From a virus, in the IMG/VR virus record IMGVR_UViG_3300037674_000236, positions 1-28,156 of that record: 28,156 nucleotides of DNA; one strand, given 5' to 3'. The notes below the pieces were generated by a model. The model saw nothing but the letters and a program-made list of their open reading frames with translations. It was not told the DNA's origin and did not search any database. Position numbers and translations under genes: made by a program. Position 1 is the first letter of the stretch. Every line of letters starts with the position of its first letter. Shown here in pieces: positions 13,970-28,156 of this stretch.

Positions 13970-14239
13970 TTATAATACTTCAATAAAAATACACTCACCG
14001 GGACACTCGTCTGCCGCCTCTATGGCTGCTTCAACATCTGAGCCGGGAACTGTTGCCAAGCCATCTGCCATCTGTAGTATTGGTTCTTCATAGACGTTGG
14101 TTCCATCGTTGTACACCGTAGGCCAATTCTCTTCTTTGACATAGGCAAGACCATCCGTTCCCATAGCAAAAACCGATGGGCAGATTTCTTCACATAGTCC
14201 GTCCCCTGTACAAAGATCTTGGTCGATCCAAACTTTCAT
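13970..14239 (-). CDS. Ferredoxin, Pyrococcus/actinobacterial single-cluster type
   Basis: An 89-residue small iron-sulfur protein. From ATG 14239 it begins MKVWIDQDLC and shows C-x2-D-x2-C-x3-C-P (C10, D13, C16, C20), then a late CPGEC (C79, C83). Pyrococcus furiosus ferredoxin has the same spacing with Asp as a cluster ligand, so a [3Fe-4S] or [4Fe-4S] cluster is expected. An insertion of about 25 residues lengthens the middle. ATG 14239 has GAGG at correct spacing and gives a normal ferredoxin N-terminus; ATG 14260 overlaps the lipoprotein stop and adds seven residues. It may feed electrons to redox enzymes during infection. Confidence 0.8.
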   Translation of the reverse strand: MKVWIDQDLCTGDGLCEEICPSVFAMGTDGLAYVKEENWPTVYNDGTNVYEEPILQMADGLATVPGSDVEAAIEAADECPGECIFIEVL

Positions 14240-14256
14240 TTTTACATCCTCATGTT

Positions 14257-17200
14257 TCATGGGTAGGTCACATCCGCATCTCTAATTGTCAAGCGATACC
14301 ATCCGCTATTAGCATTATTATACACCGAAGCACGAACCACATAATCGCCTGCTGATAGCTCTCTTGTTATACGAGAGTCCCAAGAGTCAGACACATTATC
14401 AATAACTGGCTCACCGTTAGCGAGTGTTACGTTAGGTGTTTCATCTGGGTCTGTGGCGGTGCTAGGTGGGTTGTTACAAGTGCTACCACAGTCTCTACCG
14501 CTGTCATCGTTTGCTTGAATCTGATTGCCAACTGTTATCTCATCCATGTCTCCTGAATGGTCGCCATCGTCTGGATCTGTGTCGTGATTCAGAAAGATGT
14601 AAGGATCAGCGTGTTCGTTATTAGAGCCGAACTGCGCTTGTGTCAGATTTGATTCTGCATCAATGCGAATGTCCATAAGCCCATCACCATCTTCACAATC
14701 ACAGGCAATATTTTCTTCAGCGGCAGTAGGAACCGAGAAAGCAACATGGTCGTAATCGTTTCGACTACTGGAATCAACTATGCACCAGTCACCCAAGCCA
14801 GTCCAACCACCTTGCGAACAAGAAGCTGGAACAACTGTTGCCGCTGTAGTCACCGCTACAGTCTCAACGCTTGTTTCATCACCCCAAGTGGTGCCTGATG
14901 AGGCACAAGCATTATCTACACAACCGAACTGTTGAGTCCCATTAGTAGTGTAAGTCGTGGTTGTGACAGTCGTTTCAGTTGTGTGTGTCTCATACCAATG
15001 CCCATCCTCACCCCTAGCTAACACTGTCGTGACTGTTGACTCAGTAGTGTCATTAAACCGGCTAGTGATTAAAGGATCAGAGTAAGTCCAGTAGACAGGA
15101 ACGTAAACTGGTGGTGGTGGTGGTGGCGGCACATAATCAGGATCGCCAACTTCAGGAGCTACATAATTAGGATTATTAGCTGACTCCCATTGCGCCCAAG
15201 TGTCGAAACCTCCCGGTGCATCAGCACAAGCGGCTGTGCCTATGCAATCTGCGTAAGGGTTGTCCCACTCTGGTTCAGGCTCAGGCTCAGGTTCAGGCTC
15301 AGGTTCAGGCTCAGGTTCAGGCTCTGGCCACTCTTGGTCTGTTTCTTCTTCTATCCAATCTTCTATCCAATCATCCTCTATCTCGGAATCCTCGAACCAA
15401 AACTCATCTTCCCATTCCTCCCATTCCTCTTCCGTATTAAGGAAAGGATCAAGCTCCCAGACTTCTAATTCTTCTTCCTCTGGTGGAACTTCTTCTAAGA
15501 AAGATTCTAAGAGTTCAAACTCCTCGTCTGTCCATTCGAGCATGTCCTCAGGGATAGGCCCTAGTTCTTCTTCATCCCAATCGTCCATCCATGTAGTGGT
15601 TGGCGGTACTTCCTCTACTAACCACTCTTCCTCAAGCCACTCCTCTTCTAACCATTCATCGCCTTCCAACGTTTCCGGTTGCTCATCCCACCAGTCCTCC
15701 TCTTCAAAGAGTTCCTCTTCAATAATTTCTGGAGTTTCTTCCCAGTCGTCAAATGTCTCCCAATCGGACCACTCATCTTCTTCTTCCCATTCCCAGTATT
15801 CCTCCATATCAATGTTGTCTACGAACTCAAACACTTCTTCGAGTTCAATCTCTTCATTAAATAGTTCTAGAAGTTCTAATTCTTGCTCCTCGAACCACTC
15901 CTCATCATAATCTATTTCTTCCCACTGTTCGTCCTCCCAGTATTCTTCATCGACATTGAGTATTACCTCAGTTAAGTCGAAGCCATCTTCCTCGAACAGA
16001 GGTTCCCATTCTTCAATTTCCTCAAACTCCTCAACCCAAGAGTCTCCCAGTACCTCGTCCAGTCTGTCCTCAGCTACCGCTAGAAAGTACTCCGCATCGG
16101 ATGCTACCCATTGCCCTATTTCCTCTTCCTCTTGTATAACCTCGTTTAATACTTCGTCGTAAGTAATCTCAATTTGAACAGGCTGAGGTGTAGGTTCGGG
16201 GATGGGGCTATCATTATCAACATCTTGTGGAGGCGCATCGACAGCATATAGGGATACGTCAACTTCAATCTCAGCCAGTACCTCGCCCTCGCTACTCTGT
16301 ATCTCCAAGTCCAGCATCTCTGGGGCTGGGTCGTCTACATTTACTGGCTCGGGAGCAAACTCAATAGCTATCTGCTGACCTTCATCTAACTCGACTTCAA
16401 TCTCCAGAGCATCAATAGCTATGGCTACCGTAGCCTCCTCGATCTCAGCAATGTTTAGTGACTCTTCCGAGAAAGCAATAAGTGACTGCACCTCTACGAC
16501 CTCACCGACTTCTGGCTCTGGTTCAGGCTCTGCAACTGTTGCTTCAATTTGAACAGACTTTTCTTCATTCAATAGTAGTAATGAGAACTTTTGTGGAGTA
16601 CTATCTTCTTGTTCCTGCTCCGGCAGTATTACCTCCGGCGCTTCGGTGTCTTGGTTTTCTATATAGATATCTGGAGCAGGAACATCTATCTCTTCTACGT
16701 CAGCACTAAAGGTCTCAACGTCTGGTGGCAAGAAAACCATTACAGGGTCAGACGTGGATGGACCAGAAATCAAATAACGGTAGGTGGCTCCGGGTATCTC
16801 ATTAACAAACCCTTCGTCGTAGTACCCAAGACGTTGTCCACTCTCAGTTACTATCTTTAAACTCATCTGCTTACTTCCAGATGCGGCAACTGTTAGTAGT
16901 GTTCCTGATTTGGTAGAGCCTTCCTGAGGGCAAAAACCACAAGTAAACGGCCCATTTCTAATACTCATAGGTGTCAGTTCCATGGTGCCTGTGCCACCGC
17001 CCCATGCCTCAGCCTCTTCAGTTGGGTTAGTTGCGGCTAGGGCGTATACCCAACCATCGTCGTCTACGTCAATCCATCTCTCGGCGTTAGGCCAGTTGCT
17101 GTCGTATACGTATATTCGATAACCACCCCCAACCTGTTCCACCTTGTATGGCGTAATGGCGTGACCGCCGTGCTCTGAATAGATGCCCATAGTGAAACCT

Positions 17201-17868
17201 GTGTGGTTTCTTCCAGCCTCGGATTCTGAGAAGTCATACAACAGAACCTCGGCTAATTCCTTGGGTGACATATCAAGGTAGGCGGCGGCCTCCTGTTGTA
17301 CCTCGATTGCAAACTGGGTTACATACCAATAGGCAATCTCAGACAGTAGTGCTGGGTCTTCCTTAATCAACTGGGCGACAGTGTCGGTGCCTTGATATGA
17401 CGTTAATGTTTCTAAGTCACCAGCTAGTCGCATACTCAGTACTGCTAATCCCTCACAAAGTCCACCCCTCATCGACTTGTTTGCCTGTGACATCAACTGA
17501 AGGATCACTGGGTAAGGCGTACACTTACTGTCAGTAACATCTGAACAAACCTGTGCGTCACCATATAAACGGCGAGCCATATTAACCGTTAAATCGGCAG
17601 GGGCTTCACCCCCACCAAAGTTTTCAAAAGAGAATGAATCCTCATCAGGTGTAAATGACAATGCGTGCCCCACTGGGGCAGGCGTGGGCGTGTCCGTGGG
17701 TGTGTCTTGGTCTGGGGCTATCGTTACATCTGGGACTACCGTCACATCTGGAGTTAAAGTCGTGGATGTTACTACTGTAGTAGTACTATTTTCTTCTGTG
17801 TCGTCGCCACTAGCACACCCTGCAAAGAGGAGTGCTCCGGCGATAACAACCGCCGCGAGCCTCTTCAC
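14257..17868 (-). CDS. Giant lipoprotein: papain-like domain, Glu/Trp-rich region, C-terminal PPC-like domain
   Basis: 1203 residues, by far the largest gene here. A lipoprotein signal with LFAGC (C18) is followed by a Thr/Pro-rich linker (about 25-65). Residues 95-275 look like a papain-fold cysteine peptidase: RGGLCEGLA (C138), HGGHAITPY (H236) and VYDSNWPN (D256/N258). Residues 575-865 are extraordinarily rich in Glu, Asp and Trp, ending in nine Glu-Pro pairs. After a Pro- and Thr-rich stretch (about 865-1000), the last 160 residues contain Asp-rich turns and a pre-peptidase C-terminal-like unit (ITRELSAGDYVVRASVYNN). It should sit on the outside of the cell membrane or be released. The start overlaps the upstream stop by four bases. 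It may be host-derived. Confidence 0.75.
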   Translation of the reverse strand: MKRLAAVVIAGALLFAGCASGDDTEENSTTTVVTSTTLTPDVTVVPDVTIAPDQDTPTDTPTPAPVGHALSFTPDEDSFSFENFGGGEAPADLTVNMARRLYGDAQVCSDVTDSKCTPYPVILQLMSQANKSMRGGLCEGLAVLSMRLAGDLETLTSYQGTDTVAQLIKEDPALLSEIAYWYVTQFAIEVQQEAAAYLDMSPKELAEVLLYDFSESEAGRNHTGFTMGIYSEHGGHAITPYKVEQVGGGYRIYVYDSNWPNAERWIDVDDDGWVYALAATNPTEEAEAWGGGTGTMELTPMSIRNGPFTCGFCPQEGSTKSGTLLTVAASGSKQMSLKIVTESGQRLGYYDEGFVNEIPGATYRYLISGPSTSDPVMVFLPPDVETFSADVEEIDVPAPDIYIENQDTEAPEVILPEQEQEDSTPQKFSLLLLNEEKSVQIEATVAEPEPEPEVGEVVEVQSLIAFSEESLNIAEIEEATVAIAIDALEIEVELDEGQQIAIEFAPEPVNVDDPAPEMLDLEIQSSEGEVLAEIEVDVSLYAVDAPPQDVDNDSPIPEPTPQPVQIEITYDEVLNEVIQEEEEIGQWVASDAEYFLAVAEDRLDEVLGDSWVEEFEEIEEWEPLFEEDGFDLTEVILNVDEEYWEDEQWEEIDYDEEWFEEQELELLELFNEEIELEEVFEFVDNIDMEEYWEWEEEDEWSDWETFDDWEETPEIIEEELFEEEDWWDEQPETLEGDEWLEEEWLEEEWLVEEVPPTTTWMDDWDEEELGPIPEDMLEWTDEEFELLESFLEEVPPEEEELEVWELDPFLNTEEEWEEWEDEFWFEDSEIEDDWIEDWIEEETDQEWPEPEPEPEPEPEPEPEPEPEWDNPYADCIGTAACADAPGGFDTWAQWESANNPNYVAPEVGDPDYVPPPPPPPVYVPVYWTYSDPLITSRFNDTTESTVTTVLARGEDGHWYETHTTETTVTTTTYTTNGTQQFGCVDNACASSGTTWGDETSVETVAVTTAATVVPASCSQGGWTGLGDWCIVDSSSRNDYDHVAFSVPTAAEENIACDCEDGDGLMDIRIDAESNLTQAQFGSNNEHADPYIFLNHDTDPDDGDHSGDMDEITVGNQIQANDDSGRDCGSTCNNPPSTATDPDETPNVTLANGEPVIDNVSDSWDSRITRELSAGDYVVRASVYNNANSGWYRLTIRDADVTYP
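15272..15325. repeat. Hexanucleotide tandem repeat encoding Glu-Pro pairs
   Basis: Nine copies of GG[TC]TCA (the last is GGCTCT) run head to tail. On the coding minus strand they give nine Glu-Pro pairs in the lipoprotein at about residues 848-866. Such a stiff, extended, charged linker could vary in copy number by slippage. Confidence 0.9.
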
Positions 17869-18392: not shown

Positions 18393-18647
18393 ATGGACTT
18401 TTCTAAACCAATTCCAGATGCAACCAAGAAGACGATACTAACAAAAGTCATTGGTGAAATGGAACAAGAGATTTATGAAGTATGCCTTAGACAAGGCGTA
18501 GACGCTAACACATTACCAGCGGATTACACAGCACCAGCAGAACCAGCAGACAGCGACACAGGTAAAATATATGAGCCAGAGAGGCGTATACAATCCCTGA
18601 ACGAACGCATTATTAAATGCAAATCTGACTTAACTGCGTTAGGATAA
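18393..18647 (+). CDS. Small unknown protein A of the plus-strand operon
   Basis: An 84-residue helical protein with no recognised family. The core (EIYEVCLRQGVDANTL, then ADYTAP) is shared with the next gene's product, and both end with ALG, so the two are homologous. The C-terminal helix is charged (RRIQSLNERIIKCKSDLTALG). ATG 18393 follows TAGAGGACACAATTA. It is the first gene of the operon that leads to the methyltransferase-like protein and two oxygenases. Small size and helical build suit an adaptor or structural part. Confidence 0.65.
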   Translation: MDFSKPIPDATKKTILTKVIGEMEQEIYEVCLRQGVDANTLPADYTAPAEPADSDTGKIYEPERRIQSLNERIIKCKSDLTALG

Positions 18648-18651
18648 CCTC

Positions 18652-18861
18652 ATGGCGTTAACAGAAGCTCAAGTTACGGCAGCTAAAGCAGAAGCTAAGG
18701 AATACTTAGAATATTCTACTCAAGTATTATGCCTGTCGTTAGGTGTAGATCCATCCACAGTCACATCCTCGTATACCAATCCAGTGGCTGAAGGTACGGA
18801 ATTTTACGCTGCACATGAATGTCTTAAAAATCAACTAGCCGCCCTTGGCGCACTTTCTTAA
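18652..18861 (+). CDS. Small unknown protein B, homologue of protein A
   Basis: A 69-residue protein starting four bases after the previous stop (AGGATAACCTC before ATG). Alignment by eye with protein A shows a shared VLCLSLGVDPSTV core, a following SSYTNP turn (YTAP in A), and a shared end, LKNQLAALG. It is shorter because the linker between core and end is reduced. The pair looks like a tandem duplication. Function unknown. Confidence 0.65.
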   Translation: MALTEAQVTAAKAEAKEYLEYSTQVLCLSLGVDPSTVTSSYTNPVAEGTEFYAAHECLKNQLAALGALS

Positions 18862-18864
18862 ATC

Positions 18865-19119
18865 ATGGCTGACAAGACTCAGCATGACCTTGCTGTAGAA
18901 GCAGGTAAAACTTTACTTACCGACGCTCTAATGTACACAGGACCACAGCTAGGTACCGACGCTAACTCTCCCGTAGGTCCTTGGCGAGACAACGAGCCAA
19001 TCAAGTGGAACAAAGAGTTGGCAGGATGGGAGTACGAATCAGACGCTGCAATGTTATTTTGCAGTCGCCTAGATCCAACTTCTAATTTAACCGAGCATAT
19101 TTCTAGAGAGAGTACGTAA
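18865..19119 (+). CDS. Small unknown protein C of the plus-strand operon
   Basis: An 84-residue protein with an N-terminal helix (DLAVEAGKTLLTDALMY) and a Trp-rich, Pro-containing middle (VGPWRDNEPIKWNKELAGW). The start is three bases after the previous stop, and its own stop overlaps the next start by one base. It has a Gly-Thr-Asp in a place similar to the Gly-Val-Asp of proteins A and B, but this is too little to claim homology. No family is recognised. Confidence 0.6.
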   Translation: MADKTQHDLAVEAGKTLLTDALMYTGPQLGTDANSPVGPWRDNEPIKWNKELAGWEYESDAAMLFCSRLDPTSNLTEHISREST

Positions 19120-19427
19120 TGGCTTCACGTAGTACTCCGGGAAATTCGTACTCAGCATCTAGTGACCTGTCTCAAATAGAGTATGAACTGGCTAAAGTTC
19201 TATTTTCTGTCGGTTTAGATTGGGCAAACATAGCATCTCTGTCTATTGATGACATCCTTGACAAAATAAATGAATGCAACACCATAAACCCAATGAACAT
19301 CACCAATGGTGCCGCCTACGCATCCACTTTGGCATCTGAAGACTACCTTAAAACTCAAAACACGGTATTAACCATAATGGTTAGACGCTTGTGGTACTGG
19401 CGACAATTAGCTACTGGGGTACTGTAA
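19119..19427 (+). CDS. Small unknown protein D of the plus-strand operon
   Basis: A 102-residue protein. An N-terminal Ser-rich segment is followed by a helix with VLFSVGLDWANI, loosely like the Gly-Val-Asp core of proteins A and B. Next comes an Asn-rich stretch (ECNTINPMNITNG) and a C-terminal helix rich in Trp and Arg (MVRRLWYWRQLA). The gene overlaps both neighbours by one base (TAATG), so the operon is translated as a coupled unit. Function unknown. Confidence 0.6.
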   Translation: MASRSTPGNSYSASSDLSQIEYELAKVLFSVGLDWANIASLSIDDILDKINECNTINPMNITNGAAYASTLASEDYLKTQNTVLTIMVRRLWYWRQLATGVL

Positions 19428-20176
19428 TGACACACGCTTGGATGGAAACAAACCTAATTTCCAAATCGCTTTCTAAACTAAGTTCTAATCACGACCAGAT
19501 GTGGAATAGTACAGTAGCCGACTATGTAGCAGCTATGACCACACACCATACTGCCATGAATGTAGATAGGCGAGCCACAGTTATAGGCAATGACGCAGAA
19601 CTACATTGGTGGACCATGATTGAAACGTCTGTTCCCGGTTGGGAAGCTAACGTGTGGTCTGCTGAAATGAGAGCGATCCTTTTTGAAGAGTGTATTAAAG
19701 CAACAAACTACCTGTGGGTTATTGGTGTTCCTGAATCTTGGATGATGGAGCAGATGAATGACAGTTCTAAGAACGTCACGTTAGTAAACGATTGTAACCT
19801 ATACGCATTTGAAAAGTTCTACCTAACTCAGACAGAAGTATCGACTAAATACACCGATACAGAATATTCAACTTTAGATGTTCAGGACATACTGGCAGGA
19901 ACCAACGTTGGTACTTACGACTATGTACATGTCCGCATGAAGGACTTGGTGTCATTGAATAGTAATCTTGTAGACGCTTATATGAACATGCTGTCAGTGG
20001 GGGGTGTAATGCACATCGAAGACACTGGGGCTTACGGATCGTTTTACAGTAGCCACTCCGCTTTGCATAAGCACTACATGACTAAGACTAACCGCAGCTT
20101 TTTAACCAAAGACGGATTCATGGTATTCCACCTAGCTACCGATGACGGTACTACCATTATTAAAAGAACGTCTTAA
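19427..20176 (+). CDS. Methyltransferase-like Rossmann protein (divergent)
   Basis: A 249-residue protein from ATG 19427, which overlaps the preceding TAA. The N-terminal half is helical with many His and Trp. The second half has alternating strands and helices like a class I methyltransferase: YLWVIGVPES (place of motif I), NVTLVNDCN, YDYVHVRMKDL (place of motif IV) and MLSVGGVMHIEDT (motif V-like turn). The Gly-x-Gly of motif I is missing, so SAM binding is doubtful and the protein may be a degenerate or novel transferase. It lies directly before two 2OG oxygenases and may act on the same substrate. Confidence 0.4.
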   Translation: MTHAWMETNLISKSLSKLSSNHDQMWNSTVADYVAAMTTHHTAMNVDRRATVIGNDAELHWWTMIETSVPGWEANVWSAEMRAILFEECIKATNYLWVIGVPESWMMEQMNDSSKNVTLVNDCNLYAFEKFYLTQTEVSTKYTDTEYSTLDVQDILAGTNVGTYDYVHVRMKDLVSLNSNLVDAYMNMLSVGGVMHIEDTGAYGSFYSSHSALHKHYMTKTNRSFLTKDGFMVFHLATDDGTTIIKRTS

Positions 20177-20194: not shown

Positions 20195-21220
20195 GTGGCC
20201 TTGACTAGAGATTACCCCGGATGTAGAACCCCAATCCCTTATTTATCAGAAGAGGATTGCGAACTAGTAAACAACCTAGAGTTTCATGATTATGGGGCAG
20301 GGGTTACTGTCTTTAAGAACGTTATAGACGTAGATCAGCCAAGATTGTTTGAATACATAGACAAGTACGCCATTCACTCAACTCCGGGTGTGTTTCTTAA
20401 AGAGGAGAACGGTGAAACATGGTGTGAAGATTTAGCAGGAAAAAGACATCCTGTCAGCACTTACTACCGCAACCCATACCGGCTTGGTGGTTTTGGAAAT
20501 AGCAAACCAGTCATGCGGGAAACCCCTGAAGACATAGCCGAGTTCTTTTATGAAAATGAAAATCAAATCTATCTATGTCTGATGAAGTATATAGACATCT
20601 ATACACATGTCCTAAACTCTTTGTGGTGGCGCTTCAGGGGCAATGTTCTCAAGTATTACCCCAATGGGGCAATCGGGATGCACAGTGACAACGACACAAG
20701 CAGAAAGACAATAGATGGTCAAAGGTATGAAACCGATAGACCAGAAGCCATCTTCCAAGTTCTGTCTACAATCACGTATTACAACGACTGCGTGGATACT
20801 GAAGAAGAACTAGATGGTACTAATTTTACAGGCGGGGAAATGTGGTTTCCGTTTTTGAACAACCTTACTTATAAACCTAGAACCGGAGACATACTGTTTT
20901 TCCCAGCTAACTACATAGGCTCCCACGGAGTGAACACTATAAAAGCTGGTATCAGATATAACTACCAGTCGGTGTTTGGACAAGGTGTGCACAACAATGA
21001 GCCATCGCCGTTAGTACCAATTTATGAAGCAGATAATGGACATTGGTGCCAAGCGACATACCTGCCTTGGTTACATCAAGACTGGCAACGGTTTTCAGAG
21101 TCACCTTATTCTAGGTGGGCTACCCTTGATGGTAGTCCCCCTAATGGTGAGATAAACCCACTAGTAAGACCAGTTGAGTCTGAGCCAGAAGGGCCGTACA
21201 TGCCTTATGAATATCTTTGA
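20195..21220 (+). CDS. 2-Oxoglutarate/Fe(II)-dependent oxygenase 1 (P4H-like)
   Basis: A 341-residue member of the prolyl-4-hydroxylase-like oxygenases, which use oxygen and 2-oxoglutarate to hydroxylate a substrate. The Fe site is H163-S-D165 (GMHSDND) with H244 (GSHGVNT), and R254 (AGIRYNY) would hold 2-oxoglutarate. GTG 20195 follows ATAGGCTCCTATT. Residues 30-60 (GAGVTVFKN) and 135-155 (SLWWRFRGNVLKYYP) also occur in three other oxygenases nearby. A C-terminal extension of about 70 residues, rich in Pro and Trp, may bind substrate. The DLDGTNFTGGE-type segment is intact, so the enzyme looks active. Confidence 0.88.
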   Translation: MALTRDYPGCRTPIPYLSEEDCELVNNLEFHDYGAGVTVFKNVIDVDQPRLFEYIDKYAIHSTPGVFLKEENGETWCEDLAGKRHPVSTYYRNPYRLGGFGNSKPVMRETPEDIAEFFYENENQIYLCLMKYIDIYTHVLNSLWWRFRGNVLKYYPNGAIGMHSDNDTSRKTIDGQRYETDRPEAIFQVLSTITYYNDCVDTEEELDGTNFTGGEMWFPFLNNLTYKPRTGDILFFPANYIGSHGVNTIKAGIRYNYQSVFGQGVHNNEPSPLVPIYEADNGHWCQATYLPWLHQDWQRFSESPYSRWATLDGSPPNGEINPLVRPVESEPEGPYMPYEYL

Positions 21221-22235
21221 TGCTGGCACACCACTAATAACAGAAGACGTAATTAACGAAATACAACGGATAGAAACAGAACACTTAGGTGGGGGAGTTG
21301 TTAGATTCAAAAACACTTGCACTGTTGACCCACAGTTGCTGTCTTGGGTAGACGAAAACTCATCTGAAGCATTTGAACAAAACTGGACTTACGACACAGA
21401 TGAAGACGGCAATGTGTACGCACTGAACAGCGACAAAAACAAGTTCACAATGGAACAAGTAAAGACGGTACCTACTCGGTTATTACAACCTGTAGACCAC
21501 AGCACCCCAACGTGGGTGGTTGAGACTTTTCACAATTATGAATCAGTTATATACCAGTGCTTAATTAGATATGTAGACATGTTCCCTCTAATACTAGGTA
21601 CTCTATGGTGGAGGTCAAGAGGACATGTACTTCATTATGCGCCGGGGAGTTTTCTTGGTGTGCATAACGACAATGATTCTAACTACCGAGTACTACAGGG
21701 AGAGAGGTACGTACCTAGTGGGCAAGGTGGCTCTAGGCAAGTAATAGCGATAATCCTTTATTTAAATGACGGAGTAAACAAGCCTGAAGACTTAGATGGA
21801 ACTAACTACACTGGTGGAGAAATTACATTTCCGTATTTAGACATTGAGCACCAAGGTAAGGCTGGAGATGTCCTTATATTTCCAGCTAATTACATGGGAT
21901 CACATGGTGTTAATACTGTGCTTGAAGGCACTCGTTACTCTTACTTAGAGTTCATGTCTCATGGAAGCCCAGCGCCAGAAGTACTGGTAGAAGTGTTTGA
22001 ACCAGAGGAAGTTAAAGCATGGTGTGAACCACACTGGCTAATGAGTATTTATGAAGACTACGAAAAATATGCTCTCCATGTTCAACGCAACAGTAATGAT
22101 CGAAACATCACGGATGCACCTAACCCTGTATTTCAGAACAGGTCTTTAGAGGGAGAAGTTGGTCTTAAAAAAGCCTATTACCATGAAGACGTGATAACTA
22201 AGAATTTAGAGAGGGGACACCTGAGCCGAGATTAG
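21207..22235 (+). CDS. 2-Oxoglutarate/Fe(II)-dependent oxygenase 2 (P4H-like)
   Basis: A 342-residue close paralogue of the preceding gene, with HLGGGVVRFKN near the N-terminus. Its active site is H153-N-D155 (GVHNDND), H233 (GSHGVNT) and R243 (GTRYSYL). ATG 21207, with GAAGGG upstream, is preferred to a TTG at 21174. The gene overlaps its upstream partner by 14 bases. At its 3' end it overlaps the convergent minus-strand oxygenase by 30 bases. An acidic C-terminal extension follows the catalytic core, as in oxygenase 1. All key residues are present. The substrate is unknown; peptide, protein or sugar hydroxylation is possible. Confidence 0.88.
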   Translation: MNIFDAGTPLITEDVINEIQRIETEHLGGGVVRFKNTCTVDPQLLSWVDENSSEAFEQNWTYDTDEDGNVYALNSDKNKFTMEQVKTVPTRLLQPVDHSTPTWVVETFHNYESVIYQCLIRYVDMFPLILGTLWWRSRGHVLHYAPGSFLGVHNDNDSNYRVLQGERYVPSGQGGSRQVIAIILYLNDGVNKPEDLDGTNYTGGEITFPYLDIEHQGKAGDVLIFPANYMGSHGVNTVLEGTRYSYLEFMSHGSPAPEVLVEVFEPEEVKAWCEPHWLMSIYEDYEKYALHVQRNSNDRNITDAPNPVFQNRSLEGEVGLKKAYYHEDVITKNLERGHLSRD

Positions 22236-23021
22236 TGGCGGTACCCACTTGCCATCTTTGTTGTACCACGAGTCAACATGTGTCTCCTGCTGTCCTTCTA
22301 TTGGGGTGCCGTGGCAGTAAAACTGAAGATATGAAACCCTGCTACCTTTGGTTATGGTTAACACTTGATGTGACCCTACATAACTTGCTGGGTAAAACAC
22401 TGCCGTGCCTGTCGCTGCCTTTTCTGTTACCCCAGCGTGTGCAAACTTCAACTCACCGCCCTCTTCACAATCTCTCAGAACGATAGAAGCCGTTACTACT
22501 GTTCGAGTAGGAAACTCATTTACTGGCTTTGAATCTTGGTCGGCATTTCCCAAGCCCCAATACTTGCTGTTACTACCTCTACGTTCTACTGCTTGATCTG
22601 AGTGTGGACCAATCTCCTGACCCTCAGTGTAAACCGCAGCATGACTTGGCGTTCTGTACCAGATTGATGTTTTAACTTCTGGGTATATACGGATGTACTC
22701 TTCTAGACATTTTGCCATTACGCCATCAAGATAATTAACAAAAGCAGTATCTTCAGGAGTGGCATCATACAGTAGCCCAACAAGGCGTAGTGGTGTGGTC
22801 TTGAACTGTTCTGGTGTGAACTTATAACCACCTCGGTTTACATAATTACCGTCTTCATCTATTGTGTAATCCTCAATGGTTTTCAACCGTCGGTCAGTTT
22901 TACCAGTCAAACCTGCCGTTATTTCACTCCGTCTTTCGATCCACCCGTCTAAGAAGTCCTGATCTATTTCTGCCGCACCATCAAAGATGACTAGTCCTGA
23001 AGGGTGTTTACTTATTTGCAT
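22206..23021 (-). CDS. 2-Oxoglutarate/Fe(II)-dependent oxygenase 3 (P4H-like)
   Basis: A 271-residue oxygenase, last of the minus-strand operon. The Fe ligands are H140-S-D142 (GPHSDQ) and H218 (GSHQV), and R228 (KGSRVSY) is the likely 2-oxoglutarate anchor. It shares with oxygenases 1, 2 and 4 the opening SGLVIFDGAAEID segment, a YTIDEDGNY-type turn and the SIWYRTPSHAAVY strand, but lacks the long C-terminal extension. ATG 23021 overlaps the end of the dehydrogenase gene. The 3' end overlaps a plus-strand paralogue, a convergent arrangement that could make antisense RNA. Confidence 0.87.
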   Translation of the reverse strand: MQISKHPSGLVIFDGAAEIDQDFLDGWIERRSEITAGLTGKTDRRLKTIEDYTIDEDGNYVNRGGYKFTPEQFKTTPLRLVGLLYDATPEDTAFVNYLDGVMAKCLEEYIRIYPEVKTSIWYRTPSHAAVYTEGQEIGPHSDQAVERRGSNSKYWGLGNADQDSKPVNEFPTRTVVTASIVLRDCEEGGELKFAHAGVTEKAATGTAVFYPASYVGSHQVLTITKGSRVSYLQFYCHGTPIEGQQETHVDSWYNKDGKWVPPLISAQVSPL

Positions 23022-23664
23022 CTATCCAGCTTTCGTCAGTTCGTGAGTAACTCTCTGGATCAGGAGGAACATTGTCAATAATAAGCTGACGCTTATGCTC
23101 TTTAGCGTCACACGGGGATACTTTAGCATATAAAAAGTTACGATCATCCTTAGGCAATAAAGAGACTATAGCCTCCGCTCTGTCACCCGACACAAACATG
23201 ATACGTCCATCTTGATTAGGATAGCCGTAGACGGAAGCTGATACATATGAGGCACCACTACTGTTTACATAGTCAGCTAATGAGTGCTCCCACCTTGATT
23301 GTTCAGGATCGGAAATAATGGAATTAGCGTCTACGTACACTCCCTTAAACCCAGCATGTATCACCGCTTCAGCAACAGGATAGTTAACTATTTCATTAGG
23401 AGTATCCAGACCATATACAGCGAATACGCCTGCACCACCGACTATGGACACAATTACATCAACCTCACTAACCATTTCTTCGATGGTACCTAAGTCAATA
23501 AAGTCAGACTTATCTGCCCTGTCTACAGTATCTTGGGATCGTCCCGCAGTTGCAGTAAACACAGGACATCCGTTTTTCTGAAACTGCTTACCTATAACCT
23601 CCCCAAGTACTCCGGGGTGTAGTAACCCTATGTTAGCTGGGCGGGAAATCAAGACTATAACCAC
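23008..23664 (-). CDS. NAD(P)-binding dehydrogenase-like protein, N-terminal domain only
   Basis: A 218-residue protein. NIGLLHPGVLGEVIGKQF matches the glycine-rich start of 6-phosphogluconate/3-hydroxyisobutyrate dehydrogenase-type Rossmann domains, and FKGVYVDANSIISD matches the YVDANAISP-type strand and loop of the DUF1932-linked group. The usual all-helical C-terminal substrate domain is missing, as such enzymes are normally near 280-300 residues. It may be a truncated enzyme, a cofactor-binding partner, or an oxidase of an alcohol made by the neighbouring oxygenases. GTG 23664 overlaps the previous gene by 32 bases; a TTG at 23652 has a better-placed ribosome-binding site. Confidence 0.6.
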   Translation of the reverse strand: MVIVLISRPANIGLLHPGVLGEVIGKQFQKNGCPVFTATAGRSQDTVDRADKSDFIDLGTIEEMVSEVDVIVSIVGGAGVFAVYGLDTPNEIVNYPVAEAVIHAGFKGVYVDANSIISDPEQSRWEHSLADYVNSSGASYVSASVYGYPNQDGRIMFVSGDRAEAIVSLLPKDDRNFLYAKVSPCDAKEHKRQLIIDNVPPDPESYSRTDESWIDANK

Positions 23665-24484
23665 CTTCCATAAATACGTTGGTTGCTATTCTAGCACCTT
23701 CTGGGTCTATTGCTGGATCAACAACACTTTCACCTACCTCTGGGTTTGGTGTGCCCTGACAGTACCAACCTACATGGCTGTACCTGTCACCGCCACCTAC
23801 CAAAGAAACAGCATGGGAAGCCATGTAGTTAGAGGGGAATATTAGTAGATCACCCTTACATGGCTTATATTCAATATCGAGATACCCGAAATGTACAACC
23901 CCTCCTGTAAAGTTAGTGCCGTCTAGCTCATCTTCATTCTCTACATGGTCGTTGAAAAAAGCTAATGTTGACACAACAGTTCTAGTGGCTATCTGATCGG
24001 ATGGAGTTGGTGCGCCGTAGGCGTAGTCAGTACTGGTGTCGGCGTGCATCCCTAGGTATGACCCTTCTGGATACACAAGGATGTGGCTCTTTATCTTCCA
24101 CCATATGGAGTTGCCTGCAATGGGAAATAGATGCAGGTAATCCCAAAGGCATTCATCTTTGGCATCTTCAAACCTTTTTAGTATCTGCCGTATCTCAGGG
24201 CGCATGTCAGCTTGCACATAAGCGCAATGTTGTGGCATTAGGTGTACTGAATCTGTAGGAAAGAAATAACCGTTACGATTGATATAACCATCTTCACCGC
24301 TGATCGGATCTTTACCGGGAACGTACATTGTATCCCGTTCTTTTATAGCCGATTCCTTAGAGAATGACCTAAGAAGATCCCAGTCCACCGAAACTTCACC
24401 ACGGTATAAGACTACCCCTCCTCCTAAATGCTCTCCTCTACCACCGTTCGGTTCCCACGAATCTCCGAACCCCAGTTCTGTCAT
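23633..24484 (-). CDS. 2-Oxoglutarate/Fe(II)-dependent oxygenase 4 (P4H-like)
   Basis: A 283-residue paralogue of oxygenases 1-3, starting HLGGGVVLYRG near residue 19. The Fe ligands are H147-A-D149 (GMHADTS) and H224 (ASHAVSL), with R234 (GGDRYSH) as 2-oxoglutarate anchor. The SIWWKIKSHILVYPEGS strand and DELDGTNFTGG segment are nearly the same as in oxygenases 1 and 2 of the plus strand. ATG 24484 is preferred over a TTG one codon upstream and overlaps the preceding TGA. It is followed within the operon by the dehydrogenase-like gene, suggesting successive oxidation steps. Confidence 0.88.
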   Translation of the reverse strand: MTELGFGDSWEPNGGRGEHLGGGVVLYRGEVSVDWDLLRSFSKESAIKERDTMYVPGKDPISGEDGYINRNGYFFPTDSVHLMPQHCAYVQADMRPEIRQILKRFEDAKDECLWDYLHLFPIAGNSIWWKIKSHILVYPEGSYLGMHADTSTDYAYGAPTPSDQIATRTVVSTLAFFNDHVENEDELDGTNFTGGVVHFGYLDIEYKPCKGDLLIFPSNYMASHAVSLVGGGDRYSHVGWYCQGTPNPEVGESVVDPAIDPEGARIATNVFMEGGYSLDFPPS

Positions 24485-25143
24485 CAATCATCCCAATACC
24501 GGGTATGCGACCTGCGGTCATACAGTGTCTGAAGACTCTCCAGAGTTTCCGTCATAAACAATTCTCTAGCCTCGTCATCCATGTCAAACATTGCGGCAGA
24601 CACACAGTCCAATATTGCTTGCAACAAAACTTCCCTGTTAGGTGGGTGTTCATCAGTAAACTGGCTTCCCATGTACAAGTGAGCCCAAGTTAATGGTCTA
24701 TTGTCTACAGCTTCTTGAAAGCGCCAGTCTGGGTAGTGAAACTCATTACCAACATGTCTAAGTTCTGCATCTAGTGTAATCATCCGCTCTATGTCTTCTT
24801 TTTTATCGTTAGGATCTTGACCTTCAAAGAATACAAATCCAAGTGATCCGTTTCTGTTAAACACCAACGCTTGAGCGTTTGGGTAGCGTTTCATGTAAGG
24901 ATTTAACTTGTTGTACTCAACAGACATCCACGGGGCAATTTTAAATGAAAAACCTTTACCTATACCCGCAAGTGACTCGCAAAAACTAATGTACTCATTT
25001 GGCAACATATGAAATCCGGGACGACGTGCTGGACCCAAATACACCAATAACACATCACCTTCAAAACGCTCAAAATCTGGATCGCCATAGATGCCTCTGG
25101 TGTATACCCATGGTATGTGGTCTCCATCTTTCCAATATTTCAT
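24484..25143 (-). CDS. Unknown protein of the oxygenase operon
   Basis: A 219-residue protein that I do not recognise. The N-terminal half is beta-rich (GDVLLVYLGPARRPGFHM, then FSFKIAPWMSVEYNKLNP and ALVFNRNGSLGFVFFEG). The C-terminal half is helical and acidic (FDMDDEARELFMTETLESL), with a WAHLYMGSQF motif between. No HxD or nucleotide-binding motif is visible. The ATG overlaps the DUF6065-like gene's stop (ATGA), and its own stop overlaps oxygenase 4, so it is made in step with the enzymes. An accessory or substrate-presenting role is possible. Confidence 0.55.
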   Translation of the reverse strand: MKYWKDGDHIPWVYTRGIYGDPDFERFEGDVLLVYLGPARRPGFHMLPNEYISFCESLAGIGKGFSFKIAPWMSVEYNKLNPYMKRYPNAQALVFNRNGSLGFVFFEGQDPNDKKEDIERMITLDAELRHVGNEFHYPDWRFQEAVDNRPLTWAHLYMGSQFTDEHPPNREVLLQAILDCVSAAMFDMDDEARELFMTETLESLQTLYDRRSHTRYWDD

Positions 25144-25862
25144 GTTGGTTCCTCTAGCATTGGATGTCCCTCGTATGCAGGACCTATACGCTCACCCTTT
25201 TCGTCCACACCTGTGCGTATACCTCCCAGCCAAACCCATGGTTCGTCTATTTCCTTTTGGGCTTTAGCATTGCCGTATGCCTTGCGTGCTTCCATTAACT
25301 CAGGATTGTCCCATGAGTTTGTTTTTGAAAACTCAACTGAGGGCAGTAACCCTTCATGGTAGAACTGAAAAAACATAAAAGGCATACCTTTAGGGAAATG
25401 TACTGGAGTGTTTAACTTAGTTATCTTCCAATTCATATTCCACGGATCAGGCCACCAACTAGTGGGTATGGAGGCTGTTAGTGGAACAGCCCCGTCAACA
25501 AAATAGTTAGGGGTGCCTGTGATCCACGTACTGACTCCTTCTGGAGTTTGCATGGCCCACCCAGTGTCAAACGACACTATCCCGATAATACTCTGAGATG
25601 CTACAGGACGCTCATACTTTGAACCATCGGTGGTGTGGGTAATCTTCTCGCCACTTAAAACTCTAGGTACTGACGTTGGACTGTCTAACTGAACCACCAC
25701 ATCTTGTTGTAAAACTAACTCCCACCCGTGTGTGTTGGCGGATGTCATAGGCAAGCATTTATACGCATGTTTTTTATAAGTGTCGTCCATCCAGTCTCGT
25801 CTAGGTCGAGCTTGCCTAATGGTTGGTGGGTTCTGATGAGTTTGGGTTAATGTGACTTTCAT
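25140..25862 (-). CDS. DUF6065-like protein
   Basis: A 240-residue protein matching what I recall of the DUF6065 pattern: AYKCLPMTSANTHGWELVL, then IIGIVSFDTGWAMQTPEG, ITGTPNYFVDGAVPL, WWPDPWNMNWKITKLNT and FPKGMPFMFFQFY. The strand-rich order and closing FP-x-G-x-P turn suggest a cupin-like beta-helix fold, though no metal ligands of the classic cupin kind are evident. Such proteins are often found close to 2OG oxygenases in bacteria and phages. It follows oxygenase 5 with no gap. The 251-residue gene at the other end of the operon seems to share its layout. Function is not known. Confidence 0.65.
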   Translation of the reverse strand: MKVTLTQTHQNPPTIRQARPRRDWMDDTYKKHAYKCLPMTSANTHGWELVLQQDVVVQLDSPTSVPRVLSGEKITHTTDGSKYERPVASQSIIGIVSFDTGWAMQTPEGVSTWITGTPNYFVDGAVPLTASIPTSWWPDPWNMNWKITKLNTPVHFPKGMPFMFFQFYHEGLLPSVEFSKTNSWDNPELMEARKAYGNAKAQKEIDEPWVWLGGIRTGVDEKGERIGPAYEGHPMLEEPT

Positions 25863-26555
25863 TTACACAAGTTTTGGAAGGGTTATCTTATCTGGAATAT
25901 AAACCTGATCAGTAGGGGCTACTGTAGGTTCTGAACTCTGGTGATTACGGTCGTTGTAATCATACATGGTCACTGCCGAGTACTTAACACCACTTTTAAC
26001 GGGAAATGAGGCATGGGCGTAAACAAAGTCTGAAGGGTGTACAATCACATCTCCAAACTCGGGCAAGAAGTTAAGGTTTTGGTAAGGCATGTGATACTCT
26101 CCGCCCTCATAGCCGTCGTTAATGTAGCCAATGGTAGATACCGCACATGAATATGAAAAACCACTGTCAGGATGTACTGAGAAATGTTGACCTTCCTCGT
26201 ACCTTACAAAGTTAGTGGCTTCTTCAAAATCCAACTGTAAGTTGTAACGCTTAGAGTAGTCACCAACACACTCTCTAACACCACCAATAACTTCTTGGTA
26301 AACCTTAGAAGCCTCCTCAAATTCATCAGGACAATTTTCAATGTCTGACTCTCGCATCTTAAAGTCTGAGCAATCCCTGTAATCGGGCATCTCTTCTTGA
26401 TCGCCTACTAGTGCTTTCTTCCATGAATAATATTCATGGGTACTGTTTTTTATGCAGCCTTCCAGTCTCTCAACGAAGTTGGATTCCTCCGGCCAAACTG
26501 ACTTGTATAAAGCTATTCCTGATGCTGGGTGCCCAACATAACCTGCGTATTCCAT
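25863..26555 (-). CDS. 2-Oxoglutarate/Fe(II)-dependent oxygenase 5 (short P4H type)
   Basis: A 230-residue oxygenase more distant from oxygenases 1-4 and nearer to the short P4H-like enzymes of aquatic phages. The Fe ligands are H128-P-D130 (FSVHPDSG) and H181 (YAHASFPV). The 2-oxoglutarate anchor appears to be K191 (SGVKYSA) instead of Arg; Lys is also used in collagen prolyl 4-hydroxylase. GYEGGEYHMPYQNL and FGDVIVHPSDF are typical. ATG 26555 has GGAGATTAA upstream, directly after the stop of oxygenase 6. Confidence 0.87.
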   Translation of the reverse strand: MEYAGYVGHPASGIALYKSVWPEESNFVERLEGCIKNSTHEYYSWKKALVGDQEEMPDYRDCSDFKMRESDIENCPDEFEEASKVYQEVIGGVRECVGDYSKRYNLQLDFEEATNFVRYEEGQHFSVHPDSGFSYSCAVSTIGYINDGYEGGEYHMPYQNLNFLPEFGDVIVHPSDFVYAHASFPVKSGVKYSAVTMYDYNDRNHQSSEPTVAPTDQVYIPDKITLPKLV

Positions 26556-27215
26556 TTAATCTCCAAATGTGTAGTGTCCGTAAGTGTTTAACGACGTGAT
26601 TGTATAAAACGATGGTGTTGTCCACCTTACACCAGAAACTACTGGCTTAACGCCGTGTAGATAGTTAATATCCCCCGGATGAACCACAGCCATGCCTGCT
26701 TCTATCTCTAGCTCAATACCGTGCTCTGGGTAGTAAAACTGACCACCTTCAAAATCGTCATTCCAATATATGATGGAGTTTATATCGTATGTGGGAAAAG
26801 GGTTAGGAGAACCATCGTTTAACTGCTTATCAGCATGTGGCTCTTGTACACATTCTGGTAGCCACCTAACTAACACGGGATCTCTAGTGTAAACCGAGAC
26901 TCCGAATTTATCCTCTATTACATGGGCCATCTTTTTTGTGTAGTTAGCTACCATGTCGTACACAAAGGGATTCACACGGTGCAAGGTGTCTCCCTCGCAA
27001 ACACGATCCCACCAGTACGACGCATCATAGATACAGACACCATCTTCGTTGTACTCTGTCTCTTTTGGGTTGTCCCACTGCTTTAGGTGGGGTAAAAAGG
27101 CCGCCATGTGTTCTAAATCTAAAGGAGAGACAAAATCTTTAATTATAATTATATTGTCAGTTGAATCACCAAAATGACCCGGCTCTATTAAAGATTCTTC
27201 CACTTTATTCTCCAT
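26556..27215 (-). CDS. 2-Oxoglutarate/Fe(II)-dependent oxygenase 6 (short P4H type)
   Basis: A 219-residue oxygenase. The Fe ligands are H127-A-D129 (EPHADKQ) and H187 (NYLHGVKP), with R197 (SGVRWTT) for 2-oxoglutarate. WNDDFEGGQFYYPEHG and AGMAVVHPGD are diagnostic of phage P4H-like enzymes. ATG 27215 is chosen because AAAGG stands seven bases upstream; a TTG at 27266 would add 17 residues with no good site. It overlaps the previous gene by 11 bases and is the first oxygenase of the operon. The pair 5 and 6 may have come separately from the 1-4 family. Confidence 0.87.
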   Translation of the reverse strand: MENKVEESLIEPGHFGDSTDNIIIIKDFVSPLDLEHMAAFLPHLKQWDNPKETEYNEDGVCIYDASYWWDRVCEGDTLHRVNPFVYDMVANYTKKMAHVIEDKFGVSVYTRDPVLVRWLPECVQEPHADKQLNDGSPNPFPTYDINSIIYWNDDFEGGQFYYPEHGIELEIEAGMAVVHPGDINYLHGVKPVVSGVRWTTPSFYTITSLNTYGHYTFGD

Positions 27216-27960
27216 CAGATTGCCTTTGATGTTGTCTATATAACCTCTTACGCCTGAAGGTTTCAAACCCTCCCCAACCTATGCCTCTGTTCTTTAACAT
27301 CGGAAACATTCTAGAATCTCCCATTATGACCTTTTTTACTTTTGATCCACCCTTACGTTTAAATGGTATCAGGTGATATACCGGGGTTCCAGCAGGGATA
27401 ATAAACTCCTCGTCAGTCAACACCCTAAATATCAGATTTACTCTGTGGAAATAGTCGGTATTCACAACGGATGGTAACACTTGGTATCTAGTGTCTGGCT
27501 CGTACAATATGGGCAATGCTAGAAGTGAATACCCGGGTGCGGTTTTATACAGAAAAGGAGACCTTAAATCTGGACACCCTGCGTGAGGCATGGGAACATC
27601 ATCCATAATTGGACAACCTTCTACAGACGATTTAGGAAACTGTGTAGTAGTAAAGAAAGGGTCAGCCATAGCCGCCGACACCCCACCCTCTGTAGGCTGT
27701 ACCCTAACGTCCCCCCAAAGCGGTACTGTTATACCCAGTGACAGGTAATCCTGTATGCCCTTACAGTTTTGAATTGTTAATTCGTCTATCTCTATCTTTG
27801 GCGCATTCTTGAACCACTCAGGGTAGCCAGTTGAATTGCGAAATGGTGGAAACTCTAAAAGACGGTCATCTTTTGGAATGACCAGAATCTCATTGGGTTT
27901 GACCTTAGGCCAGTCCCCATAGAATCTCATTTTGTCCACTCGGGCCACTCTTTTGTCCAT
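27205..27960 (-). CDS. Conserved unknown protein, layout similar to the DUF6065-like gene
   Basis: A 251-residue protein. It has EWFKNAP, then TIQNCKGIQDYLSLGITVPLW, TAPGYSLLALPILYEPDT and FIIPAGTPVYHLIPFKRK. The order (Cys/Pro strand, central Pro-Gly strand, closing P-x-G-x-P turn) resembles the DUF6065-like protein at 25140, suggesting distant common descent. I recall similar proteins in marine phages, without a known role. The C-terminus is basic. ATG 27960 has GGGGG very close; ATG 27930 is another possible start. It directly follows the Pro-rich repeat gene, 11 bases away. Confidence 0.55.
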   Translation of the reverse strand: MDKRVARVDKMRFYGDWPKVKPNEILVIPKDDRLLEFPPFRNSTGYPEWFKNAPKIEIDELTIQNCKGIQDYLSLGITVPLWGDVRVQPTEGGVSAAMADPFFTTTQFPKSSVEGCPIMDDVPMPHAGCPDLRSPFLYKTAPGYSLLALPILYEPDTRYQVLPSVVNTDYFHRVNLIFRVLTDEEFIIPAGTPVYHLIPFKRKGGSKVKKVIMGDSRMFPMLKNRGIGWGGFETFRRKRLYRQHQRQSDGE

Positions 27961-27971
27961 GACCCCCTAGT

Positions 27972-28145
27972 CTACTCAAAATGTGGCGGAAAGTGTGGTG
28001 GGAAGTGTGGTGGGAAAAACGGTGGGAAGAACGGTGGGAAGAACGGTGGGAAGAACGGTGGGAAATGTGGCGGAAAGTGAGGCGGGAAGTGTGGTGGGAA
28101 GTGTGGTGGGAAGTACGGGCTGTAGTAAGTATAGTCAATGGCCAT
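27972..28145 (-). CDS. 57-residue PPHF/PPFF tandem-repeat protein
   Basis: ATG 28145, with TTGGGA just upstream at the window edge, opens MAIDYTYYSPYF followed by eleven four-residue units: PPHF four times, PPFF four times and PPHF three times, ending in a single Glu. Third codon positions vary (CCA/CCG/CCT, CAC/CAT, TTC/TTT) while amino acids stay fixed, which points to selection on the protein. About 40 percent of residues are proline, many in Pro-Pro pairs, with seven His. It may bind metal or form a stiff rod. Its lead position in an operon rich in prolyl-hydroxylase-like enzymes makes it a candidate substrate. Other frames across this DNA are by-products of the repeat. Confidence 0.65.
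   Translation of the reverse strand: MAIDYTYYSPYFPPHFPPHFPPHFPPHFPPFFPPFFPPFFPPFFPPHFPPHFPPHFE
27978..28109. repeat. Eleven 12-bp tandem repeats
   Basis: On the minus strand each unit reads like CC-n-CC-n-[CT][AT][CT]-TT[CT], coding Pro-Pro-His/Phe-Phe. Three neighbouring PPFF units are identical, suggesting recent duplication, while the outer PPHF units differ at silent positions. Copy number could change by slippage or recombination. Confidence 0.9.
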
Positions 28146-28156
28146 TCCCAATGGGT

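Follow-up and report, generated by a model that had tools for sequence, protein, structure and literature searches.

Phages with a high copy number of 2-oxoglutarate (2OG)/Fe(II) oxygenases are already known. Cyanophage S-SCSM1 has 24 of these enzymes; their function was not tested in that study, which proposes a role in host metabolism (PMC9602691). Cyanophage S-CREM1 has 10 (PMC9964418). Here we consider a block of six prolyl 4-hydroxylase (P4H)-like 2OG oxygenases, called A to F, in an uncultivated phage, IMG/VR virus record IMGVR_UViG_3300037674_000236. The window is positions 1 to 28,156 of that record, 28,156 nucleotides in all, and it ends inside a gene for a protein with proline repeats. 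The T4-like cyanophages are alike in having many diverged PF13640, PF13759 and PF05721 enzymes per phage, and seven of the S-SCSM1 oxygenases sit around tail-fibre genes. They are different phages, however, and lack both DUF6065, a family found in the block, and (PPxF)n repeats. The published guess for their enzymes is host metabolism, whereas our reading of the window is fibre modification.

Chlorella virus PBCV-1 is a eukaryotic virus, unlike the phage of the window, and has one known P4H enzyme, with (PAPK)n as the peptides. The likeness is that this is a viral P4H, and oxygenase E matches the structure of that enzyme (5c5t) in fold. The enzyme was characterised with peptide substrates (Eriksson et al. 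1999, cited in PMC7019647), as evidence for hydroxyproline in viral proteins. A literature search for the PBCV-1 P4H together with proline-rich found nothing. Auxiliary P4HA genes are abundant in Baltic Sea phages, where their use is called cryptic and collagen in tail fibres is mentioned (PMC9301287). These too are abundant phage prolyl-hydroxylase-like genes, but theirs is a single-gene view in which no substrate repeat is named. Plant P4H with extensin and algal P4H with (Ser-Pro)n (3gze) share the P4H fold and have tandem proline repeats as the type of substrate. They differ in belonging to the eukaryotic secretory pathway and in their repeat units. We know of no homology between the plant or algal proline repeats and those of phages.

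Active sites of the six oxygenases and predicted fold of E

Oxygenases A (20195-21220) and B (21174-22235) are on the plus strand, and C (22206-23021), D (23633-24487), E (25863-26555) and F (26556-27266) are on the minus strand. Matches to PF13640 coincide exactly with these six open reading frames (E-values 6e-12 to 2e-6). In a per-protein scan four of the six are above the Pfam curated cut-off and A and F are slightly under it, all with E-values below 0.001. The phrog_61 family, "2OG-Fe(II) oxygenase", matches all six. The initial annotation had claimed six P4H-like enzymes, each with an HxD...H iron site and a basic 2OG anchor, and the profile searches and the alignment bear this out. The HxD motif reads HSD, HND, HSD, HAD, HPD and HAD in the aligned window oxygenases, and the distal His is present in every copy. 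The anchor is Arg in A, B, C, D and F. It is Lys in E, and this Lys is invariant across 20 E orthologues. A to D are diverged paralogues with pairwise identities of about 27-37%, and E and F stand further apart.

The fold evidence for the oxygenases covers E. A profile of the 20 E orthologues searched against solved structures finds the Bacillus anthracis P4H first (3itq, 5hv0; E-value 2.5e-7), followed by PiuC, collagen lysyl hydroxylase and prolyl 3-hydroxylase. The AlphaFold2 model of E (predicted local distance difference test, pLDDT, 87) has a double-stranded beta-helix fold. Its best Foldseek match is the algal P4H with a bound (Ser-Pro)5 peptide (3gze, E-value 4e-9), at a VIA Z of 17.9 and 2.5 A over 171 residues. 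The hypoxia-inducible factor (HIF)-type and P. putida prolyl hydroxylases give VIA Z 18-19, and the range over the HIF, P. putida, algal and PBCV-1 types is 16-19. Judged by the profile and this model, the nearest solved relatives of E are peptidyl-prolyl hydroxylases. The fold alone does not settle proline as the target, because PiuC-type and lysyl hydroxylases match E as well.

Conservation of the block

To gather contigs, IMG/VR was scanned for DUF6065 and for oxygenase B. Among the matches listed, about 90 contigs carry genes of the block, from identical down to about 50% identity. The order of the orthologues is kept across the relatives: F, E, DUF6065, D, C and then B/A. A tree with 115 members of the family places A to F in separate clades, each common to distant phages. 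The groups of C, D and A are well supported (1.0 for the D clade) and the others less so; orthologues of F also occur in distant phages. Since the same order and the separate clades are common to distant phages, we take the oxygenase set to be an old co-inherited module and no chance pile-up. This agrees with the initial annotation, which saw one block rather than scattered auxiliary genes: co-occurrence is conserved, and the set is not found dispersed singly over unrelated contexts. What fails is its view that six in one block is unusual. The 17 large relatives (72-174 kb) each contain 6-11 PF13640 matches, mostly clustered, so this is normal for the group, and 10-24 oxygenases are published for cyanophages.

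The relatives have extra genes: PF13759, PhyH, TauD and Asp-hydroxylase-type oxygenases, and glutathione-peroxidase-like and AurF-like proteins. One can imagine a scenario where iterative 2OG oxidation, with NAD-, S-adenosylmethionine- and glycosyltransferase-like helpers, tailors a surface glycan or metabolite. These extra genes would suit it, as would PF11397 where it occurs. We consider it improbable all the same. The block shows no scaffold-building enzymes, the structural matches of E are to peptidyl hydroxylases, PF11397 is in only 4 of 13 records, and such tailoring does not predict the linkage to proline repeats described below. The pathway proposed in the initial annotation stands as a co-conserved block, but its small-molecule sense has no evidence behind it, and the link to fibre repeats points to protein modification.

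PF11397, the family of GlcNAc transferases to which the Skp1 hydroxyproline enzyme belongs, was found at L085:7716-8690 and, among the large relatives, in records G004-G007, once adjoining oxygenase E. It is possible that these enzymes glycosylate hydroxylated residues. With only 4 of 13 records, hydroxyproline-linked glycosylation is kept as a side observation. The glutathione-peroxidase-like protein regularly adjoins the cluster (L011:6045-6899, L063:18125-18775; the c3 family is in about 60 loci). Two cassette-bearing contigs, L106 and L107, sit in metagenome-assembled genomes labelled Gammaproteobacteria and Verrucomicrobiales, and are probably phage contigs that were mis-binned.

Proline repeats as the candidate substrate

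It is worth considering what lies just past the last oxygenases. The initial annotation had the block end at 27215 and missed a repeat gene, so the block should be extended to 28154. Of this gene the window has the 3' part (27972-28154, minus strand), cut by the contig end. It codes for a proline-repeat protein of the (PP[HF]F)n kind, the candidate substrate. Read in frame, its C-terminus is PLGMAIDYTYYSPYFPPHFPPHFPPHFPPHFPPFFPPFFPPFFPPFFPPHFPPHFPPHFE-stop. The repeat DNA pattern has 9 overlapping matches on the minus strand at 27985-28109. The stop codon is at 27972-27974, 11 bp before the next gene on the same strand, which puts the repeat gene just upstream of the operon. Full-length homologues in close relatives (L008:11-364, L011:5538-6035) have a PASTA-type N-terminus (PF03793, E-value 1.8e-8 in the latter). 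Repeat proteins in other relatives have fn3 or Peptidase_S74 domains, and the 1200-aa neighbour in L011 has an Mtd_N domain. We assign the repeat proteins a fibre or adhesion architecture because of the PASTA, fn3 and Peptidase_S74 domains in the full genes. A proline-repeat scan of the proteins around the cluster finds (PP[HFY]F)n-arm genes adjoining it in about 35 contigs. The arrays do not look like fresh DNA slippage, because the third positions of Pro codons differ between adjacent repeat units in 38-56% (the search expression itself accounts for part of the variation between codon positions, and only Pro third positions were used). A literature search for the string PPFFPP gave, among the matches listed, mostly PR-39-type peptides.

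A fibre gene beside the enzymes bears on the role proposed for cyanophages, in which the oxygenases drain 2OG or otherwise shift the nitrogen or carbon status of the host. There are published proposals to this effect (PMC3037559, PMC9602691). However, draining 2OG would not call for six diverged enzymes in a fixed order next to a fibre gene, and there are no regulatory genes in the block. We regard host reprogramming as very improbable here.

The association of repeats with oxygenases runs in both directions. The repeat DNA pattern occurs in all 17 large relatives. It matches 2-23 times in each, while the reversed pattern, as a control, matches 0-2 times. For the reverse test contigs were chosen solely by (PP[HFY]F)3PP DNA to avoid circularity. 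The sample was 50 longer contigs, none of them part of the earlier set, from at least 120 repeat loci listed. PF13640 is present in 45 of these 50, and 37 have four or more matches. Contigs chosen by a random 15-mer have it in 2 of 26, with one match each, and contigs chosen by collagen-like (GPT)4 DNA in 9 of 50, only 3 with two or more. Fisher p-values for repeat-selected against control contigs are 8e-13 and 1.5e-13, inflated by shared ancestry. DUF6065 is in 36 of the 50 repeat-selected contigs, and 9 of the 14 without it still have PF13640 (p 3e-4).

The association is also biased in position. Among the matches listed, which come from at least 120 repeat loci, the repeat is in an open frame in 115 of 120; 87 of the 120 have an oxygenase in the same stretch at a median gap of 296 bp; the nearest oxygenase is downstream of the repeat gene in 84 of those 87; and clustering of these nearest oxygenases at 50% identity gives 14 groups. 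A single oxygenase was found in each of L201 and L225, and there it overlaps the stop codon of a fibre gene that has (PPFF)n and ends in a Hint-like part; in L221 an E-type enzyme begins 22 bp after an fn3-(PPYF)4 protein. Presence of the repeat is a far better guide to the enzymes than presence of the enzymes is to the repeat.

We argue that the block is probably a virion-protein hydroxylation module acting on the proline repeats of a fibre. The repeats are the probable substrate because enzymes and repeats co-occur consistently across phages. In this scenario the phage would produce a protein of fibre type that bears a long (Pro-Pro-[His/Phe/Tyr]-Phe)n arm. The P4H-like enzymes, with 2OG, Fe(II) and O2, would then hydroxylate the arm in the host cell before assembly, most likely on its prolines. 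Several paralogues may share the work by taking different prolines, by 3- as opposed to 4-hydroxylation, or by modifying other residues. The product would be akin to collagen, plant extensin or mussel adhesive and may offer stiffness, stickiness or protease resistance, and the hydroxylated arm would serve adsorption. A broader claim, which we put no higher than even, is that this is a widespread phage system in which one to about eleven P4H-like enzymes are dedicated to (PP[HFY]F)n adhesion-fibre arms, with oxidation perhaps of the aromatics as well, which would make the arm adhesive or rigid.

It must be noted that several points weigh against fibre-repeat hydroxylation. PF13640 has no match in 5 of the 50 repeat-selected contigs, and in L143 and L150 the oxygenase is 4.5 kb from the repeat. 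The contigs are related, hence the p-values overstate the evidence. Other substrates exist, because cyanophages with 8-13 PF13640 matches have no (PPxF)n repeats. Only E has a fold model, and A to D could act on something else. The PBCV-1 precedent is mixed, since PMC7019647 also cites an unpublished analysis in which PBCV-1 virions had no hydroxyproline.

The other scenario to weigh has the oxygenases acting on different proteins of the phage or host, such as collagen-like fibres or the small proteins encoded at 18393-19427. The (PPxF)n gene would then be linked to them only through a shared, exchangeable tail-fibre module. The cluster adjoins fibre genes in most relatives, some relatives have collagen-like fibres, and the small proteins are conserved as well. 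Cyanophage oxygenases flank fibre genes that lack PPxF, and the close fold matches of E include the P. putida P4H, whose structure was solved together with EF-Tu. Proximity to fibre genes is insufficient as an explanation, however, because contigs with collagen-like fibres are far weaker in the association (9 of 50 against 45 of 50). The overlap or 22-bp spacing in one-enzyme contigs also speaks against it. We find this scenario unlikely, though less so than tailoring or host reprogramming. Collagen-like fibres as the general substrate were rejected on the same comparison.

Independently ascertained contigs now link phage oxygenases to a defined repeat protein that is encoded beside them. The outcome is a set of named candidate enzyme-substrate pairs, including the one-enzyme minimal pairs L201, L221 and L225. 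Modification in hydroxyproline-rich proteins is usually tied to animals, plants and algae. If fibre-repeat hydroxylation is true, bacteriophages make hydroxyproline-rich fibres. No cultured phage among those checked has both oxygenases and proline repeats.

Two other kinds of fibre protein were seen. Those at L201:3040-5565, L225:3560-6481 and L188:2128-3861 combine (PPFF)n with a Hint-like region at the C-terminus (PF13403 E-value 0.0025 in L225, under the cut-off), which suggests self-processing of the fibre. Collagen-like (GPT)n fibre proteins adjoin the same cluster in L031, L033, L034, L038 and L062.

Other genes of the block and the window

The DUF6065 protein (25140-25862, minus strand) was called correctly by the initial annotation (PF19541, E-value 8e-41), as was a related protein, U2 (27205-27960, minus strand), which is phrog_7084 (E-value 1e-21) and is kept in close relatives. 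DUF6065 is strongly conserved at 48-78% identity. Its model (pLDDT 76) has a predicted dUTPase/dCTP-deaminase-like jelly-roll fold, with a Foldseek E-value of 3e-5 to a dUTPase-like fold and a VIA Z of 11.2 at a root-mean-square deviation of 5.5 A over 121 residues. This fold raised DNA hypermodification as a candidate, which was rejected: no hypermodification genes were recognised in the block. PF19541 is uncharacterised in Pfam and occurs in Proteobacteria too. Among bacterial DUF6065 genes (about 23 of 398 genomes) none has a prolyl-hydroxylase gene within 1.5 kb except on a phage-like contig, G094:C74, so the bacterial context gives no functional hint. A literature search for DUF6065 found no paper.

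U1 (24484-25143, minus strand) clusters with proteins of relatives that are fused to or beside a TauD-type 2OG oxygenase domain. The protein at 23008-23664 (minus strand) is conserved in position in relatives, but its dehydrogenase-like label comes down to one sub-threshold NAD_binding_2 match (E-value 0.014), and we call it a possible NAD-binding protein. The so-called methyltransferase-like protein (19391-20176, plus strand) is syntenic in relatives; the label is dropped, as it has no Pfam or other family match.

Besides the oxygenase block the window encodes a terminase, a portal, a major capsid protein and an S74-type fibre. The terminase resembles those of Streptomyces phages of about 115 kb (45-47% identity), which makes an actinobacterial host plausible. 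Two such cultured relatives by terminase, BRock and LuckySocke, have neither the oxygenases nor a proline repeat. On the minus strand are a phage-encoded 4Fe-4S ferredoxin (13970-14260; PF13459, E-value 1e-17) and a 1203-aa protein (14257-17868) that starts with a lipobox-type signal and is very acidic and rich in Trp/Glu in its middle part; the latter has no Pfam match and has a homologue in close relatives. Four small proteins of 84, 69, 84 and 102 aa are encoded at 18393-19427 on the plus strand, three of them with an "LGxDP"-like motif as judged by eye. They are possibly second substrates or virion parts. Similar small proteins adjoin the cluster in relatives, and in distant phages too, with little sequence identity.

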